A stretch of 23,955 nt of DNA from a virus. Where the stretch lies: positions 1-23,955 of IMG/VR virus record IMGVR_UViG_3300042691_009422; one strand, 5' to 3'. Positions 12,187 through 21,457 of the stretch are shown here, piece by piece (positions within the stretch are counted from its first letter, which is position 1; the number at the start of each line of letters is the position of its first letter). Both the position numbers and the translations under genes were made by a program. Under the pieces are notes generated by a model that did not search any database, was not told where the DNA came from, and saw only the letters and a program-made list of their open reading frames with translations.

Positions 12187-12216
12187 CAAAGATAAACTTT
12201 TTCTAAAAAAAGTCAA
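12187..12216 (-). promoter_or_regulatory. Bacteroidota-type promoter for the fibre genes
   Basis: On the minus strand TTG (12216-12214, within CTTGACTT), a 19-bp spacer, then TATCTTTG (12194-12187). It lies in the gap between the endolysin stop and the 440-residue gene and shares -33 sequence, spacing and -7 form with the promoter at 16799-16828. Transcription should begin near 12181. Confidence 0.75.
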
Positions 12217-13070: not shown

Positions 13071-13100
13071 CAAATATAATATTTTTAGCAAAAAAGTCAA
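13071..13100 (-). promoter_or_regulatory. Bacteroidota-type promoter for the lysis genes
   Basis: Minus strand TTG (13100-13098, within CTTGACTTTTT), a 19-bp spacer, then TATATTTG (13078-13071). It sits between the terminator at 13119 and ATG 13057, so it can start the holin-endolysin transcript independently of the upstream gene. Confidence 0.75.
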
Positions 13101-13118
13101 GTTTAGGGGTAAAGAAAA

Positions 13119-13145
13119 ACCCCTAATGGGTTATTAGGGGTTTTC
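13119..13145 (-). terminator. Intrinsic terminator of the 84-residue gene
   Basis: Eight-base stem CCCCTAAT / ATTAGGGG (13120-13127 and 13133-13140) around a five-base loop. On the minus strand it is followed by TTTTTC and on the plus strand by TTTT, so it can stop transcription in both directions. It lies 50 bases past the stop of the gene at 13194 and just before the lysis promoter. Confidence 0.85.
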
Positions 13146-13193: not shown

Positions 13194-13448
13194 TTAGATA
13201 ACTGCACCTTCTATTTCAGGAGCTTCGGTAGGAAGTTCTCCTTTAGTAGCAATTCCGCCTTCAAGCATACGCTTCAAAATATCTTGACTAGCTTGCAAAG
13301 CAGGAATATAAAGTTCTTGCAAATCTTTAATGCTAAGTTGCGCTTGAGGGATTTCACACGAAGAAGCAAGACGAATTAGGAATTCAAACTCTCTGCCTGT
13401 TACTTCGATTTTGGCTTCTGGAGACCAACTGATTTTTTCTTGTTCCAT
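13194..13448 (-). CDS. Hypothetical protein, 84 residues, monocistronic
   Basis: No recognised family. The start is ATG 13448 (MEQEKISW); an upstream extension to 13499 would cross the promoter and is rejected. The sequence is soluble and acidic: a beta-like WSPEAKIEVTGREF is followed by helices (EFLIRLASSCEIPQ, SIKDLQELYIPAL, SQDILKRMLEGG) and a Pro/Glu tail. It is framed by its own promoter and its own strong terminator, so it is transcribed alone. It is divergent from the GroES trio. This isolated, divergent arrangement would fit a regulator, but there is no DNA-binding motif I can name. Confidence 0.78.
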   Translation of the reverse strand: MEQEKISWSPEAKIEVTGREFEFLIRLASSCEIPQAQLSIKDLQELYIPALQASQDILKRMLEGGIATKGELPTEAPEIEGAVI

Positions 13449-13480: not shown

Positions 13481-13515
13481 TTTGCAAATATAATACCAAC
13501 TGCCTATATTTGCAA
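13481..13515. promoter_or_regulatory. Symmetric bidirectional promoter
   Basis: Two complete promoters share one 35-bp stretch. Plus: TTG 13482-13484, 20 bp, TATATTTG 13505-13512. Minus: TTG 13515-13513, 20 bp, TATATTTG 13492-13485. The elements fall in a perfect 11-base inverted repeat, TTGCAAATATA (13482-13492) and TATATTTGCAA (13505-13515), so the -33 of one direction lies inside the -7 of the other. It drives the 84-residue gene leftward and the GroES trio rightward. Confidence 0.78.
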
Positions 13516-13531
13516 TATTAAAAAATAAAAA

Positions 13532-13879
13532 ATGAGACACGTAGAAAAAGCCTACAATAAATTTGTAGAACAAACTACAGGCGAAATTCCTGTAATTCTT
13601 GATTACATTCAGCTTGAAAATGTTGAAGATGTACAAGGAGTTGCTCCAATCGTTAAGTTCACTATTCAGTCTGATCCTATTGGAGAAGTCGGAGTAAATG
13701 GATGCCAAGCACTTGATATGCTTAAGTATGTTAAGTGTTTGTTCGAAAGTTTAAACGATGCTTACCCAAGTGATTACAATGTGACTACAATTGCACACAT
13801 TGAAAATGCTATCAATGCACAGCATCTAAGAACTCAAGATAGATTAAAAAGAGGAGTAGAAGGTAAAAATATTGCATAA
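13532..13879 (+). CDS. Conserved-looking small phage protein, 115 residues, RGVEG C-terminus
   Basis: First gene of the GroES trio. No named domain. The C-terminus INAQHLRTQDRLKRGVEG resembles the tail of a widespread class of short phage proteins that end in RT..R..RGVEG. The middle (KFTIQSDPIGEVGVNGCQAL, then DMLKYVKCLFESLNDAYP) is a strand-helix arrangement suggesting a small ligand- or protein-binding fold. Biochemical role unknown. It starts about 15 bases after the predicted transcription start, in A-rich sequence. Whether it is related to any anti-defence protein cannot be settled by eye. Confidence 0.75.
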   Translation: MRHVEKAYNKFVEQTTGEIPVILDYIQLENVEDVQGVAPIVKFTIQSDPIGEVGVNGCQALDMLKYVKCLFESLNDAYPSDYNVTTIAHIENAINAQHLRTQDRLKRGVEGKNIA

Positions 13880-13883
13880 GCCC

Positions 13884-14264
13884 ATGGAAAATAAAAACTC
13901 AAAGCAACTCTTCTGGTACCACGAAGAATTTGAACGGGAAGTCGAGAAGCCTGTTCAACATGAAGATGAAATTGACTACATTGCTTCAAAAGAAAAAACT
14001 AAAGTAGTTAAAGGGTGTTTTAGCTTAGACCACGTAGCTGCAGCACGTATTGTCGAAGGAGGAAACATTGAAATCTACTTAAGTTTAGCTCACGACCAAA
14101 TGATTCCTGATCCAAGCAAACCTAAGTACAAAAACATCAAAGGACAAAAACAACTTATTGGCTTTGACCAAAAGGTTTACACTATGCCAATGGGTGTCAC
14201 TTTGACAGTATCTGAGGATAAGGAACGCTTTTTGTCATTAACAGGGGGAAACCAATATGTTTAA
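13884..14264 (+). CDS. Hypothetical protein, 126 residues
   Basis: No recognised family. ATG 13884 (MENKNSKQLFW) is preferred over the TTG at 13872, which lies inside the preceding gene. The N-terminal 45 residues are charged and polar (FEREVEKPVQHEDEIDY). The rest is beta-rich, with KGCFSLDHVAAARIVEGG and GVTLTVSEDKERFLSLTGG. It overlaps the GroES gene by 8 bases, so the two are probably translated together. A structural or assembly-related client of the chaperonin is one possible reading, without direct evidence. Confidence 0.72.
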   Translation: MENKNSKQLFWYHEEFEREVEKPVQHEDEIDYIASKEKTKVVKGCFSLDHVAAARIVEGGNIEIYLSLAHDQMIPDPSKPKYKNIKGQKQLIGFDQKVYTMPMGVTLTVSEDKERFLSLTGGNQYV

Positions 14265-14508
14265 ACCGTTAGCAAATCGTGTTTTAGTCTTGCCAGCTCA
14301 AAAAGAAGATTCAATTAACGGTATCTTTCTTCCAGATCAGTCAAAAACCAATCCTCCTCGTGGCAAAGTAGAGGCAGCTGGTTCGGAATGTAAAGATGTT
14401 AAAGTAGGCGACTTTGTTTACTTTAGCGAACACTCAGGTTCTCCTCTTAAACTTAACAATGTTGAGTATTTAATTATGAGGGAAACCGACTTATTCGGCA
14501 TCGAATAA
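14257..14508 (+). CDS. groES: Viral GroES-like co-chaperonin (Cpn10)
   Basis: 83 residues, slightly shorter than bacterial GroES (about 97). Recognisable family landmarks in order: PLANRVLVLP at the start (family R-P-L-x-D-R-V), a mobile loop EDSINGIFLPDQSKTNPPRG with the Gly-Ile-x-Leu contact motif, GKVEAAG, VKVGDFVYF and YLIMRETDLFGI. It is a lid protein for the host GroEL ring, presumably to help fold phage proteins such as the capsid, as gp31 does in T4. No GroEL gene is in the window, so it would use the host's. It is the third gene of a short transcript ending at a terminator 22 bases downstream. Confidence 0.9.
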   Translation: MFKPLANRVLVLPAQKEDSINGIFLPDQSKTNPPRGKVEAAGSECKDVKVGDFVYFSEHSGSPLKLNNVEYLIMRETDLFGIE

Positions 14509-14527
14509 CTCTCTAAAAACCAAAAAG

Positions 14528-14556
14528 AAAAAGGAGCTTATTAGGCTCCTTTTTTT
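14528..14556. terminator. Bidirectional intrinsic terminator after GroES
   Basis: Stem AAAAAGGAGC / GCTCCTTTTT around a seven-base loop (TTATTAG, 14538-14544), with a T tract on the plus strand and, on the minus strand, T-rich sequence beyond the A arm. It separates the converging ends of the GroES trio (14508) and the minus-strand 81-residue gene, whose stop is at 14555. Confidence 0.82.
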
Positions 14557-14800
14557 ATTCAGTCATTGAGAGAACTCTAGGTTCTTCTATTGGAACATCT
14601 GTTAGAATTACTTTAAGTCCGAATAATTCCTTGATAGGACTAGGCATATTCTTAGCGTTAATCCCGTTAGTTTTTAAGATAGCTTCGTATTGGTCTTGAG
14701 TTAATAAAAGATGTGTAGGCTTCATAGGAACTATAGAACCATCAGGAGCTACAGAAGTTTGCTTTTCCATATCTAAGCATTGTTCGATTATACTAAACAT
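14555..14800 (-). CDS. Hypothetical protein, 81 residues
   Basis: The start is ATG 14800 (MFSIIEQCLDM), which shares one base with the stop of the metallophosphoesterase (TAATG) and has a clear AGGAG eight bases ahead. A start at 14830 is possible but lacks such a site and would overlap more. Visible features: THLLLTQDQYEAILKTNG helix-like segment, and PIKELFGLKVILTD near the end, resembling small phage proteins of unknown role with an FGLKV strand. Last gene of the large minus-strand block. Confidence 0.72.
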   Translation of the reverse strand: MFSIIEQCLDMEKQTSVAPDGSIVPMKPTHLLLTQDQYEAILKTNGINAKNMPSPIKELFGLKVILTDVPIEEPRVLSMTE

Positions 14801-16561: not shown

Positions 16562-16793
16562 GGATTCGTCTTTCTTCAGAGATTAGTTTTTTTCTAGTAA
16601 CCTTCAAACTGTCTATCTGGGTATTGACTTTAGATATTACTTGGTAAAGAGAGTCAATCTTTCTTACAGCTATGTAAGAATTGTAATCGTTTTCACAAGA
16701 CTTAGCAAACATAGCCAAAGAAAAAAAGAACAGTATCCAGCTAATCAGTGCCCAGGGATTAATTTTAAGGTTGTCGTTAGATTGGTTTGACAT
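16449..16793 (-). CDS. Single-pass coiled-coil membrane protein, inner-spanin-like candidate
   Basis: 114 residues. A short polar N-terminus (SNQSNDNLKINPW), one transmembrane helix (ALISWILFFFSLAMFAKSC, residues about 15-33) and then a charged helical domain (KIDSLYQVISKVNTQIDSLK, then KLISEERRIHEESTKIIERIL), which fits an inner spanin with a periplasmic coiled coil. It overlaps the 140-residue gene by 113 bases. Its ATG lies five bases after the -7 box of its promoter, so the mRNA is almost leaderless. Alternative: an unrelated virion or lysis-regulation membrane protein. Confidence 0.6.
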   Translation of the reverse strand: MSNQSNDNLKINPWALISWILFFFSLAMFAKSCENDYNSYIAVRKIDSLYQVISKVNTQIDSLKVTRKKLISEERRIHEESTKIIERILLAPDSVQCFITEELVREHTYLDTIR

Positions 16794-16798
16794 ATACT

Positions 16799-16828
16799 CA
16801 AAGATAAAGTTTTAAAAAATTAAGTCAA
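16799..16828 (-). promoter_or_regulatory. Bacteroidota-type promoter for the membrane pair
   Basis: Minus strand TTG (16828-16826, within CTTGACTT), a 19-bp spacer, then TATCTTTG (16806-16799). It lies between the 1541-residue gene's stop and ATG 16793, and its -33 and -7 match the fibre promoter at 12187-12216. Confidence 0.75.
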
Positions 16829-16831
16829 GAG

Positions 16832-19800
16832 TTAGTCTCTCTTCTTTTTAGATTTTGCTTTTTTAAATAGAGAAGACTTTTTAGCTCTTTTTGATTTCAT
16901 TCTTTCTTGGAAGCTAGTCTTTTTCTTTTTAGTTTTAACTCCTGCTACTTCCATGCTTTCTCTATTTTTTTCTTTCTTTTCTTTTCTTTCTTCTTTTTCG
17001 CTTTCAGACTCTATCTTTTTAACACTGCCTTCTTCACTTATATACCGTGTTTCTGTTTTTTCTGTGTAGAGCTTAGGATTAAAGTGTGTAAAGCTACGAG
17101 ACTTGTATTCCATTCTTCTAGGACTAACATCAAGTTCTCCAAAACCACTAAGCTTAAGTGCTAAAACAGCTATGGCAGGTTTACCTCCATAAAGAGGGTC
17201 TGTTGTGTTCCAATCTATTTTTCCTGCAGAGTTTCTTTTATAGTAAGGCTCCATAGGGTCAAAGAACCGTATAGCTGGGTCACTAAATATGTTCCACATC
17301 CTAGTCAAAGGAGAGATAAGCTGGTTTACTACTCTTTCAGGTGCGGAGATTTGTGTTTTCTGGTCTACGAATCCATAAGTAAAGTTTATTGGAGTCATAA
17401 TAGGATCTAAGCTTTCTAGTTCGTCTCCTACACCTTTAGCTAGCCAGTTTGCGTAGTCACAAGCATCTTGATCCCCATCGTCGTCACAGTCTTTGAGTAG
17501 GGCTTGAAGAACCATATAACTAGCAGTAAGTACAGTTGTCCTCCAAATAGGAGCAATTTGTTTCTTTTCAGTTGGAGTTAAAGTTTGATAAGCAGCTATA
17601 AAATTCTTTTGATACTTAGCTACATCTACTACAAATTGCCAAAGAACTTTGTAGGCTCCTTTAGATCTAACTCCGGCTAAGTAATCCACATACTCACTTC
17701 CAAAATATCTTTCTATTTTAGGAGCTTTCCATTTACCCATATAAAAAAGAATACGATAAATCACATACTTAGTTCCTTCTGGTTGATAGAGTTGATCGTA
17801 TAAACCCTGAGAGTGGTGGTTCATGTGTTTAATCTTGGCTCGAACAGCTCTTACTAGATGGTCAGGAACTTCGTAACCAGGCTTAATCACTAAGTTGTTT
17901 CCTTGTAAAGCATAAGCATCCATAAGTTTTGCTTGTGTTCCATTAGGGCCTTTTACATAAACCTTATTCATAATAGCAAAAGCCAAAGTAGCTTGCACTT
18001 CAAATTCAGTCCACTCCCTAAATCTGTTGACCATTTTAAAAATGTTTCCAAACTTTCTAAGAAAGGTAGACTTGATGAAAGCTCCTTGTCCAAAATCTCT
18101 TTGTTGGATAGCTCCAAAGTTATCAAGTATCTGGAGATTTAAAGGACGATTACCTACTTGAGGATTTAACAGCCAATCTTTTGAAGCTAATGCAGCTTCT
18201 ACTCTAGCAGCGTGTAAGTCAGCTAAAGTAATATCATAGTTACCTGCTAGGATAAAGTTTTGAGCCATTCCTGCTACTAAGTTCTTTACAGGAGAGCTTA
18301 AGTTTTGTCCTAGAGACATAGCTCCTGATCTTTTTAAAGTAAAATTAAACAAAGCACTAATTCTGTTAGCTACGTTGCTATCATAGTTCTTCATGTTCTC
18401 GCCATAAAGCACTCTGTTAATAATACCTTCAGTAGTTTTTGTGCCTGAGTTTATAGTACGTCTCTCTGCAATAGCTTGGGCTCCAAGAATAGTATTTTGG
18501 TTTTCTCGCAAAGCACTAAACTTAGTAGCTTCCCCTATGTAAAGTCCTATGCCTTTCATTATATCATAAGACATTACTCCTTTGTCTAGAGGACGAGCAT
18601 ACCTCATATAAAGAACTTTTCCTGCTTTTTCTAGAGGATTACCAAAAGCATCTTGTTGGTCTACTTCTCCATATACGTCATCTACGTCAGGGTTTTGAAA
18701 GTCTTGTTTTCTAAAAGCGGTTTTAAGTTCATTGATGGCGTTTTTAACTACTCCTTTTCTTTTAAGAGCAACTGTATCTAAAGAAAGTTCTAAACCTTCT
18801 TTCCTGTGATAAGGAAGAATAGTTCTAAGTTTATTTTGACTATATTGGTCTTTTTGTTCTTCTAAATAAAAATCAAGAAGATCTTTTGCAATAGACTTTT
18901 TCTCAGGAGATAAAGTATCCCATTCATTGTTATAAAAAGCTCCTTTGACTACTTTGAAATTAATATCTCGGCTGTAGTTTGGATTTTCTAATTTAGGGTT
19001 TACTCGATAACTAAACCAAACTCTAGAAGGAACTCGTTCTTGAACTACTTTAAGAGCTCTAAGTTCTTTTATTCTTTCTTTGTTTGCTACAGGGTCTTGT
19101 TGTTCGAGTCTATCCGCTAAAGCATTAGCTTCTTGTTTAATAGTATCAATAGCGTAATCAGAAGGAACAGTTCTTCTCCAGATAGCTATTGGTCTTGGAA
19201 TAAGTTGAAGTTTACCGTCTATGTATCTTTCGACATAAATATGATTATCTTGAAACCATTGAGAGTCTTCAAACTTTCTTTCTACTTCAGCGTTAAGTAT
19301 ATCTCCGTCATCCCACTCTTGATTTTTGAGAAGTTGAGAACGGATTAAATTTTTTCTATTTTCTACTTCGGTCTTGTAGTATTCTGTGGCTCCGGTGTAT
19401 TGAAGTTCTTGAAGTTCGTTTATTAGTCTACCTAAAGCGGCTTTATCTTCAAGAGTCATCTTAGATGTACCTTTAGTAGTTTTAAACGCTTCAATCTCTT
19501 CTTCTAAAGTTCTTATAGTATTAGTAAGATCAGTAGATACTTCGGTTCCGTCATAAACTCCATTAGCGTCTCTGTAGCCTTGTAGTAAGGTACGAATCTT
19601 TTTGTTGTTTTTACCTATAGTAGTTTCTTCGTACTTACTGGTTATTGCGTCAATTTTATCGGTTACTTTTTTAATCTTTGTATAATACTCAGGAGCAAAA
19701 GTATCCCTAGAGTAATAAGAAAGCCAACGAGCAAACTCATCTTGTGCAGCTTCTTTTTCTACAGCAGTTCCAGGGCCATTCAGAATTTTATTAAGTTTTT

Positions 19801-21457
19801 CTTCTTGCTCTTTTAAAGTAGCTTCAAACTGAAGCTTGGAAGAATTTTCTAAGTAAAAGTCATGCACTCCTAACTCTTGAGCTCTTTTATTATAGGCTTG
19901 AAGTAGTTGAGCAACTCGAACTTCTTCAGGAGATTTTAAATTACCAAAGTCATCGTATTCTTTACTTAAGTCTTTTATCGTCTTGTCGATAGCTTTGATA
20001 GCTTCTAAGTCTCCTTCTGAAATACTAATTCCGTCTAAACGAGCAATGATGGTGTTTTTTTCATCTCTTAATTCGTCTATTTTTTGTTTGATGTCTTCGG
20101 GTAGAATTTTTCTAAACTCGTAATAGTCATCTATGAATTTTCTTTCTTCGTAAGTTTCTGAAAACAGTTTAAGTGCGTCTATAGCTTTTTGGCGGTCTTC
20201 CTCATTCTCTGCTTTGTCAATTGCTTCTTTAAGTTTAAATCTTTCGTTGCGGAGTTCTTGGTCTTTCATTTGGGTTTGAAGAACCAAAGCAAAGTTTCCA
20301 AACTGGTCTACAGTTTCTCTGTACAAGCCTTTGTACATATTTCTAATGTCTAAGTTTTCTCCTGCTAAAGTTTGAATTCTCTCCATTATATCTTGGAGTC
20401 TATTCATTTTTTGGAAGAATTCTCTTTGAGCATCTTCTACTATATTGTAAATGTACTTAGATATTACTTGTACTCCTGGGTCTGCATTGTAACTACCAGA
20501 TTTAAAAATTAAAGCATACCAACTACCTGTAGGGTTGTTTATCCATCTTTCAAGGTTGGCTCTTGTTAAAGCATTCTTTTTAAAGGATTCTTGTTCTCTT
20601 TTAAGTTTAGTTTCTAAAAGCCTTCTTTGGCTGGGGCTTTTAGTCTCTGCTAGTTGTTTTTCTAGAAATTCAATTTGTTTTCCAAAAGCTTCTTTATTAA
20701 CTGCCTCAGCGTTAGGCCCAAACAAACTCCAAAGCTCGTCTGCAACTTGCTTACTTAACTTACTTTCATATATATTAGTAAGGTCAGCAATACTGTTTTC
20801 CATGCTTTTTTTGGTAGCAAACAGTTGTTCAAATCCTTTTCCTTTGTAATTATCTACTAGACTTCTAAAGTCTTCGTCTTCTGGAAAAATAGACTTTAAC
20901 TGTCTTTTAAAGTTATCTGCAGTTTGATAGGCAGAAAACAAAGCAGCTACTTTATTCCTAGTAGAAGCTTGAGATCCTAGGAAGGTTCTAAGGCCTTTAA
21001 CCATTCCTTCCAAATACATGTTAGAACGGTGAAGATACATATTAAGGTACTCAATAGACTCTGCAATGTATTCAGGAGTAATAGCTCCTCTTTCTGCGCT
21101 ATTTAGTAATTTTTGTAAAGCAAGACGAGGAAACTCTGTATTGGCTCCTTCTGTTGTGTCTATTATAGAGTTTTTAAAACTATTTAAAAGTCTAGTTACG
21201 TTTTCTGTTTTTGTCTCTGACCAGTTATCGTTTAGATTTTGTGCAAGTTTTTCAAAATACTCATAAGACATATTAGCAGAGTCTTGTACTTGTATTTGAA
21301 TTTTATAGTCTTCGTATTCTTTAACAGAAGGAATAGTATCTACTCCGTTGTTTTCTTGCCAAATATTAACAACAGCAGCTATTACTTTTTCAGAGTCAGT
21401 CGTATTAGTGACTAGATTTTTAAACTCTGGGGAATTTTGATTTATACACGAACTCAT
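16832..21457 (-). CDS. Giant virion-type/ejection protein, 1541 residues
   Basis: No named domain. The first ~900 residues are mostly charged alpha helix and probable coiled coil (for example ALKLFSETYEERKFIDDYYEF). A globular helical part follows at about 1030-1300 (MSLGQNLSSPVKNLVAGMAQ, FREWTEFEVQATLAFAIMN, YRILFYMGKWKAPK). Next are a hydrophobic helix TASYMVLQALLKD and a very acidic DCDDDGDQDACDY stretch (about 1322-1335). The last 70 residues are Lys/Glu- then Lys/Arg-rich (tail KSKRAKKSSLFKKAKSKKKRD, split at Ser). Size, helicity and position suggest an internal virion protein ejected with the DNA. It starts in an ATGA overlap with the ADP-ribosyltransferase-like gene. Role unproven; RNA polymerase was considered and rejected. 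Confidence 0.75.
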   Translation of the reverse strand: MSSCINQNSPEFKNLVTNTTDSEKVIAAVVNIWQENNGVDTIPSVKEYEDYKIQIQVQDSANMSYEYFEKLAQNLNDNWSETKTENVTRLLNSFKNSIIDTTEGANTEFPRLALQKLLNSAERGAITPEYIAESIEYLNMYLHRSNMYLEGMVKGLRTFLGSQASTRNKVAALFSAYQTADNFKRQLKSIFPEDEDFRSLVDNYKGKGFEQLFATKKSMENSIADLTNIYESKLSKQVADELWSLFGPNAEAVNKEAFGKQIEFLEKQLAETKSPSQRRLLETKLKREQESFKKNALTRANLERWINNPTGSWYALIFKSGSYNADPGVQVISKYIYNIVEDAQREFFQKMNRLQDIMERIQTLAGENLDIRNMYKGLYRETVDQFGNFALVLQTQMKDQELRNERFKLKEAIDKAENEEDRQKAIDALKLFSETYEERKFIDDYYEFRKILPEDIKQKIDELRDEKNTIIARLDGISISEGDLEAIKAIDKTIKDLSKEYDDFGNLKSPEEVRVAQLLQAYNKRAQELGVHDFYLENSSKLQFEATLKEQEEKLNKILNGPGTAVEKEAAQDEFARWLSYYSRDTFAPEYYTKIKKVTDKIDAITSKYEETTIGKNNKKIRTLLQGYRDANGVYDGTEVSTDLTNTIRTLEEEIEAFKTTKGTSKMTLEDKAALGRLINELQELQYTGATEYYKTEVENRKNLIRSQLLKNQEWDDGDILNAEVERKFEDSQWFQDNHIYVERYIDGKLQLIPRPIAIWRRTVPSDYAIDTIKQEANALADRLEQQDPVANKERIKELRALKVVQERVPSRVWFSYRVNPKLENPNYSRDINFKVVKGAFYNNEWDTLSPEKKSIAKDLLDFYLEEQKDQYSQNKLRTILPYHRKEGLELSLDTVALKRKGVVKNAINELKTAFRKQDFQNPDVDDVYGEVDQQDAFGNPLEKAGKVLYMRYARPLDKGVMSYDIMKGIGLYIGEATKFSALRENQNTILGAQAIAERRTINSGTKTTEGIINRVLYGENMKNYDSNVANRISALFNFTLKRSGAMSLGQNLSSPVKNLVAGMAQNFILAGNYDITLADLHAARVEAALASKDWLLNPQVGNRPLNLQILDNFGAIQQRDFGQGAFIKSTFLRKFGNIFKMVNRFREWTEFEVQATLAFAIMNKVYVKGPNGTQAKLMDAYALQGNNLVIKPGYEVPDHLVRAVRAKIKHMNHHSQGLYDQLYQPEGTKYVIYRILFYMGKWKAPKIERYFGSEYVDYLAGVRSKGAYKVLWQFVVDVAKYQKNFIAAYQTLTPTEKKQIAPIWRTTVLTASYMVLQALLKDCDDDGDQDACDYANWLAKGVGDELESLDPIMTPINFTYGFVDQKTQISAPERVVNQLISPLTRMWNIFSDPAIRFFDPMEPYYKRNSAGKIDWNTTDPLYGGKPAIAVLALKLSGFGELDVSPRRMEYKSRSFTHFNPKLYTEKTETRYISEEGSVKKIESESEKEERKEKKEKNRESMEVAGVKTKKKKTSFQERMKSKRAKKSSLFKKAKSKKKRD

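Follow-up and report, generated by a model that had tools for sequence, protein, structure and literature searches.

Gene arrangement and sequence of the palindrome

In the viral DNA analysed here (23,955 nt over its whole length, referred to as the window) a perfect inverted repeat separates two divergent gene units. The leftward unit consists solely of a gene for an 84-aa protein (13194..13448, minus strand), which has homologues in three relatives (L155-L157), gave no Pfam or PHROG match and has a predicted structure of low confidence. The rightward unit on the plus strand comprises a 115-aa gene (13532..13879; phrog_2428, unknown function), which is absent in L155-L157, a 126-aa gene of unknown function (13884..14264), which is the first rightward gene in these relatives, and the gene for the GroES co-chaperonin (14257..14508; PF00166, E 5e-17; phrog_3188). 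The left end of this cassette is marked by a terminator-like hairpin after the 84-aa gene (13116..13144, minus strand; a 12-bp perfect stem followed by a T-rich stretch), the right end by a terminator-like inverted repeat between GroES and the minus-strand gene at 14555 (14523..14559). With terminator-like repeats on both flanks, the palindrome remains as the one obvious promoter of either unit. By comparison, the next unit is restarted by an ordinary one-way promoter, TTGACT-16-TATATTTG (13071..13100, minus strand). Pfam/PHROG-type matching recognised no regulator family among the cassette genes, BLASTN with this region found no match among annotated phages, and no Rfam match was obtained.

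Direct reading of the sequence confirmed the predicted perfect 11-base inverted repeat with arms 12 bases apart. The whole 34-bp repeat occupies 13482-13515 and has the form TTGCAAATATA-N12-TATATTTGCAA; with its flanking bases it can be written as a-TTTGCAAATATA-ATACCAACTGCC-TATATTTGCAA-t, and the plus strand from 13481 to 13516 reads TTTGCAAATATAATACCAACTGCCTATATTTGCAAT. On both strands we likewise recovered the predicted double use of the arms, in which each arm serves as the -33 element (TTG) of one promoter and as the -7 box (TATATTTG) of the opposite one, with a distance of 20 bp from TTTG or ATTG to TATATTTG. The rightward promoter has its -33 TTG at 13482..13484 and its -7 box at 13505..13512 (both plus strand), the leftward promoter at 13513..13515 and 13485..13492 (both minus strand). 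Read as sigma70-type hexamers, both strands give TTGCAA-17-TATATT. The base at 13481 is an additional T that completes TTTG on the plus strand only, while the minus-strand -33 element is ATTG, so the two promoters are unlike at -33. The -7 boxes are separate, 12 bp apart, and lie 19 and 36 nt from the respective ATGs.

Promoters of the primary sigma factor in Bacteroidota carry a -7 box TAnnTTTG and a -33 element TTG/TTTG (PMC7366714 for B. thetaiotaomicron, PMC9723704 for F. psychrophilum), and in F. psychrophilum the -7 box was mapped at -12 to -5 (PMC9723704). Here TATATTTG fits TAnnTTTG on both strands, and the TTTG on the plus strand and the ATTG on the minus strand both lie within the usual ~19-21 bp upstream. 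Applying the mapped box position, rightward transcription is predicted to start at ~13517 with a leader of ~15 nt and leftward transcription at ~13480 with a leader of ~31 nt, so that the starts would be ~37 bp apart. The palindrome thus resembles Bacteroidota sigma-factor promoters in both boxes and has ordinary spacing and leader lengths, but differs from those described in the papers searched in that two of them are nested symmetrically. The host of this phage appears to be a member of the Bacteroidota, judging from the type of promoter and because relatives of the terminase found in one of the additional contexts described below occur in phages of Bacteroidota.

Three one-way promoters of the type TTGACT-16-TANNTTTG (the box being TATATTTG or TATCTTTG, i.e. 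TTGACT-16-TAT(A/C)TTTG) are present in the window, compared to 0.05 expected with spacers of 15-18 bp; all three are on the minus strand (12187-12216, 13071-13100 and 16799-16828). Orthologous one-way sites with TTGACT or TTGACA occur in the relatives, so that the phage clade seems to possess a strong -33 box. The symmetric promoter lacks the ACT of TTGACT because these bases are taken by the CAAA of the opposing box.

Conservation and chance expectation

Relatives were collected by searching with the 84-aa protein, hence the palindrome itself was not used as a query. This search yielded one 100% identical copy and the three relatives L155-L157, and a search with the 126-aa protein led to the same contigs. 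TTGCAAATATA-N12-TATATTTGCAA is kept in all of them. The original prediction had called for related phages to be screened for the same symmetric arrangement, and the three relatives retain 22/22 arm positions and the gap of 12. In the deeper pairs none of the 22 arm positions is changed, while 8-9 of the 12 spacer positions differ (p 4e-6 and 3e-5). That the arms stay intact and at an exactly constant distance although the intervening DNA changes indicates that the palindrome is under selection. Since L155-L157 lack the 115-aa gene and the promoter there directly meets the 126-aa homologue, it has been kept whichever gene comes first. The 115-aa gene was also tried as an anchor, and its relatives show other upstream contexts, mostly without the palindrome. 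This anchor fails because the gene is absent in the close relatives; the promoter belongs to the pair of 84-aa and 126-aa genes.

Symmetry alone is weak evidence, whereas promoter content and conservation are strong. In simulated 24-kb sequences perfect 11-bp arms with a gap of 0-60 bp occurred with a mean of 1.2, so that about one such repeat per 24 kb would also be expected if this were a chance palindrome in AT-rich DNA. Restricting the gap to 11-13 bp lowered the mean to 0.08, and CAAANNTA-N11-13-TANNTTTG had a mean of 0.03 per simulated sequence, a value computed after the fact. That arms and gap length persist alongside a diverged gap sequence already contradicts a chance origin, and the gap of 12 moreover recurs in unrelated contexts (see below); we regard chance as extremely improbable. 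Conservation and the recurrent N=12 geometry accordingly support the prediction on two counts, namely that two fully overlapping divergent promoters are present and that they reflect selection rather than chance.

Recurrence of the geometry in IMG/VR

Exact arm pairs with gaps of 2-32 bp were found 15 times in IMG/VR, and in 11 of these the gap is 12. A naive test gives p 5e-14 for this enrichment, which is an overstatement because several matches are related; counted by context, a gap of 12 is found in 3/7 (p 0.001). The three N=12 contexts are the 84-aa/GroES locus, a terminase gene divergent from the gene of a second protein whose function is unknown, and a gene for a DnaG-type primase. In a relaxed scan with free nn positions in the arms, where neighbouring genes were taken from simple ORF calls, 16 of 78 non-redundant sites among the matches listed had N=11-12 (p 3e-5). 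Again among the matches listed, 12 of the 18 sites with N=11-13 lie between divergent genes, compared to 4 of 60 elsewhere. In a scan for CAAATATA-N6-30-TATATTTG, the spacing signal was blurred among the matches listed, many of which were coding. Divergent regions picked without regard to the motif contain few box pairs, and no divergent N=11-13 case was present in the stretches examined from three named phages and an uncultured one.

The primase and terminase contexts provide natural variants. The upstream gene in the primase context has the same orientation as the primase gene. L291 and L292 keep the full palindrome there without a divergent gene, before a single co-directional gene; L293-L295 have TTGTAAATATA, and in L298 and L299 the reverse box is lost, with the forward TATATTTG staying. 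Between the divergent genes of the terminase context the N=12 layout is present in L304-L306, L309, L315 and L316, with a weakened -33 element in L309 and L316. Decay in the primase context and retention in the terminase context indicate that the second box persists where there is a gene that requires it. In one terminase subclade with divergent genes (L311-L313, L317) the boxes are ~32 bp apart, hence overlap is common but not obligatory.

Several further sites were noted. The cultured Flavobacterium phage elemoF (NC_055853.1) carries TTGCAAATATA-N16-TATCTTTG between groEL (minus strand) and a divergent gene (L318, 16070-16101), a further chaperonin operon associated with divergent boxes that overlap, at a wider gap. 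Exact arms are also located beside HTH-like repressor genes in L169 (746-793, gap 26) and L172 (6647-6692, gap 24); these long-gap arms may be separated promoters or operators. In L173 the primase gene has a GIY-YIG-like ORF (454-1098) directly inside its start, which suggests an intron or a homing insertion.

Promoter model, alternative readings and known systems

With opposed promoter cores on the same DNA and a gene on each side, as is likewise the case in L155-L157, we read the palindrome as the shared core of overlapping divergent sigma-A promoters that would drive the 84-aa gene and the GroES operon of a terminator-bounded cassette. Very probably these are host sigma-A promoters, through which both units share one polymerase-binding site. 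Each 11-base arm would correspond exactly to the TTG of one promoter abutting the -7 box of the other. Because TTGCAA is its own reverse complement, TTTGCAA ends one -7 box and at the same time supplies the other -33 element, and the 12-bp gap sets the hexamers 17 bp apart on either strand. The melting regions of the two promoters should not overlap, the polymerase footprints would; judging from footprint size, a polymerase bound in one direction should cover the opposite promoter, and one enzyme at a time is expected.

Being a perfect 11-bp dyad whose half-site centres are spaced by 23 bp, the palindrome could also be mainly an operator, bound at both arms by a dimeric regulator that controls one or both genes, and the exact-arm sites with N=24 and 26 do adjoin HTH-like repressor genes. 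The symmetry, however, ends exactly at the sigma boxes: the bases just outside and just inside the arms are unpaired, so the dyad is not independent of the promoter elements, which makes a repressor operator unlikely. Many of the N=11-12 sites in the relaxed scan are asymmetric at the nn positions, a feature compatible with sigma boxes but not with a symmetric operator, the same arms stand in unrelated gene contexts, and no regulator family was found among the cassette genes. A single functional promoter is the other alternative, the opposite one then being a by-product that the extended box TATATTTGCAA entails and that is tolerated, with antisense or idle initiation. The palindromes of L291 and L292 before a single co-directional gene are in line with this, as is the finding that bidirectional initiation is common in E. 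coli and need not serve a function on each side (PMC10268837). Several points oppose this reading: a gene is located 16-36 nt away on each side in the window lineage, the one other promoter that could serve the 84-aa gene is separated from it by a terminator, 4/4 loci of this lineage keep both -7 boxes, and the reverse box decays where no divergent gene is present (L293-L295, L298, L299); we consider such a by-product improbable.

Overlapping divergent promoters are a kind already known, and the palindrome belongs with them. The bidirectional promoters of E. coli and Salmonella described by Warman, Grainger and colleagues (PMC12825309, PMC10268837) similarly use a short symmetric element at which polymerase can bind in either orientation, one way excluding the other, and give divergent RNAs. 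They share a -10 element and have starts 7-25 bp apart, whereas the -7 boxes of the palindrome are separate, each nested with the -33 element of the other, and the predicted starts are farther apart than in that class. Pc/Pr of the Bacillus plasmid pLS20 (PMC4207663) resembles the palindrome in having divergent cores on the same DNA and an expected exclusive occupancy by polymerase. The pLS20 promoters are unequal and act with the regulator RcoLS20 and looping, while those of the palindrome are near-identical and no regulator was recognised.

These comparisons bear on the predicted outcome of competition, "a simple switch or balance". The tested E. coli bidirectional promoters show no competition at basal activity and compete solely under strong activation of one direction (PMC12825309), and an overlapping-promoter switch is said, in a passage of PMC4207663 citing Bendtsen et al., to need unequal promoters and a differential regulator. 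With no recognisable regulator at this locus, the switch found no support. Near-identical promoters instead suggest balance, and output is probably roughly balanced and mutually limited rather than bistable.

In the papers searched we found no description of the symmetric nested geometry for Bacteroidota or their phages, an absence that counts as weak evidence. Bacteroidota phages might have repeatedly evolved a compact symmetric module (TTG abutting an opposing TAnnTTTG on both strands, gap of 11-12 bp) that ties a pair of divergent operons to a single polymerase-binding site, with the expression ratio set by polymerase competition without a regulator; we put this forward only tentatively, and rather doubt that it holds. 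The geometry TTGCAAANNTA-N11-12-TANNTTTGCAA can be searched for as a pattern of overlapping divergent Bacteroidota sigma-factor promoters. It is distinct from the shared -10 class of Enterobacteria, has conserved natural examples before GroES and terminase genes, and makes the palindrome a clean system to ask whether polymerase competition alone balances two genes.

Elsewhere in the window, at 16793 (minus strand) and 1965 (plus strand), a TATCTTTG and a TATATTTG box end 4-5 nt before the ATG, from which leaderless mRNAs are predicted. An imperfect 18-nt inverted repeat (1942-2001) overlaps the latter box and the start of an endonuclease VII-like gene (1965). The 1541-aa protein encoded at 16832-21457 (minus strand), which has no Pfam match, is weakly similar (24%) to a region carrying the annotation RNA polymerase subunit in the crAss-like phage cr128_1.
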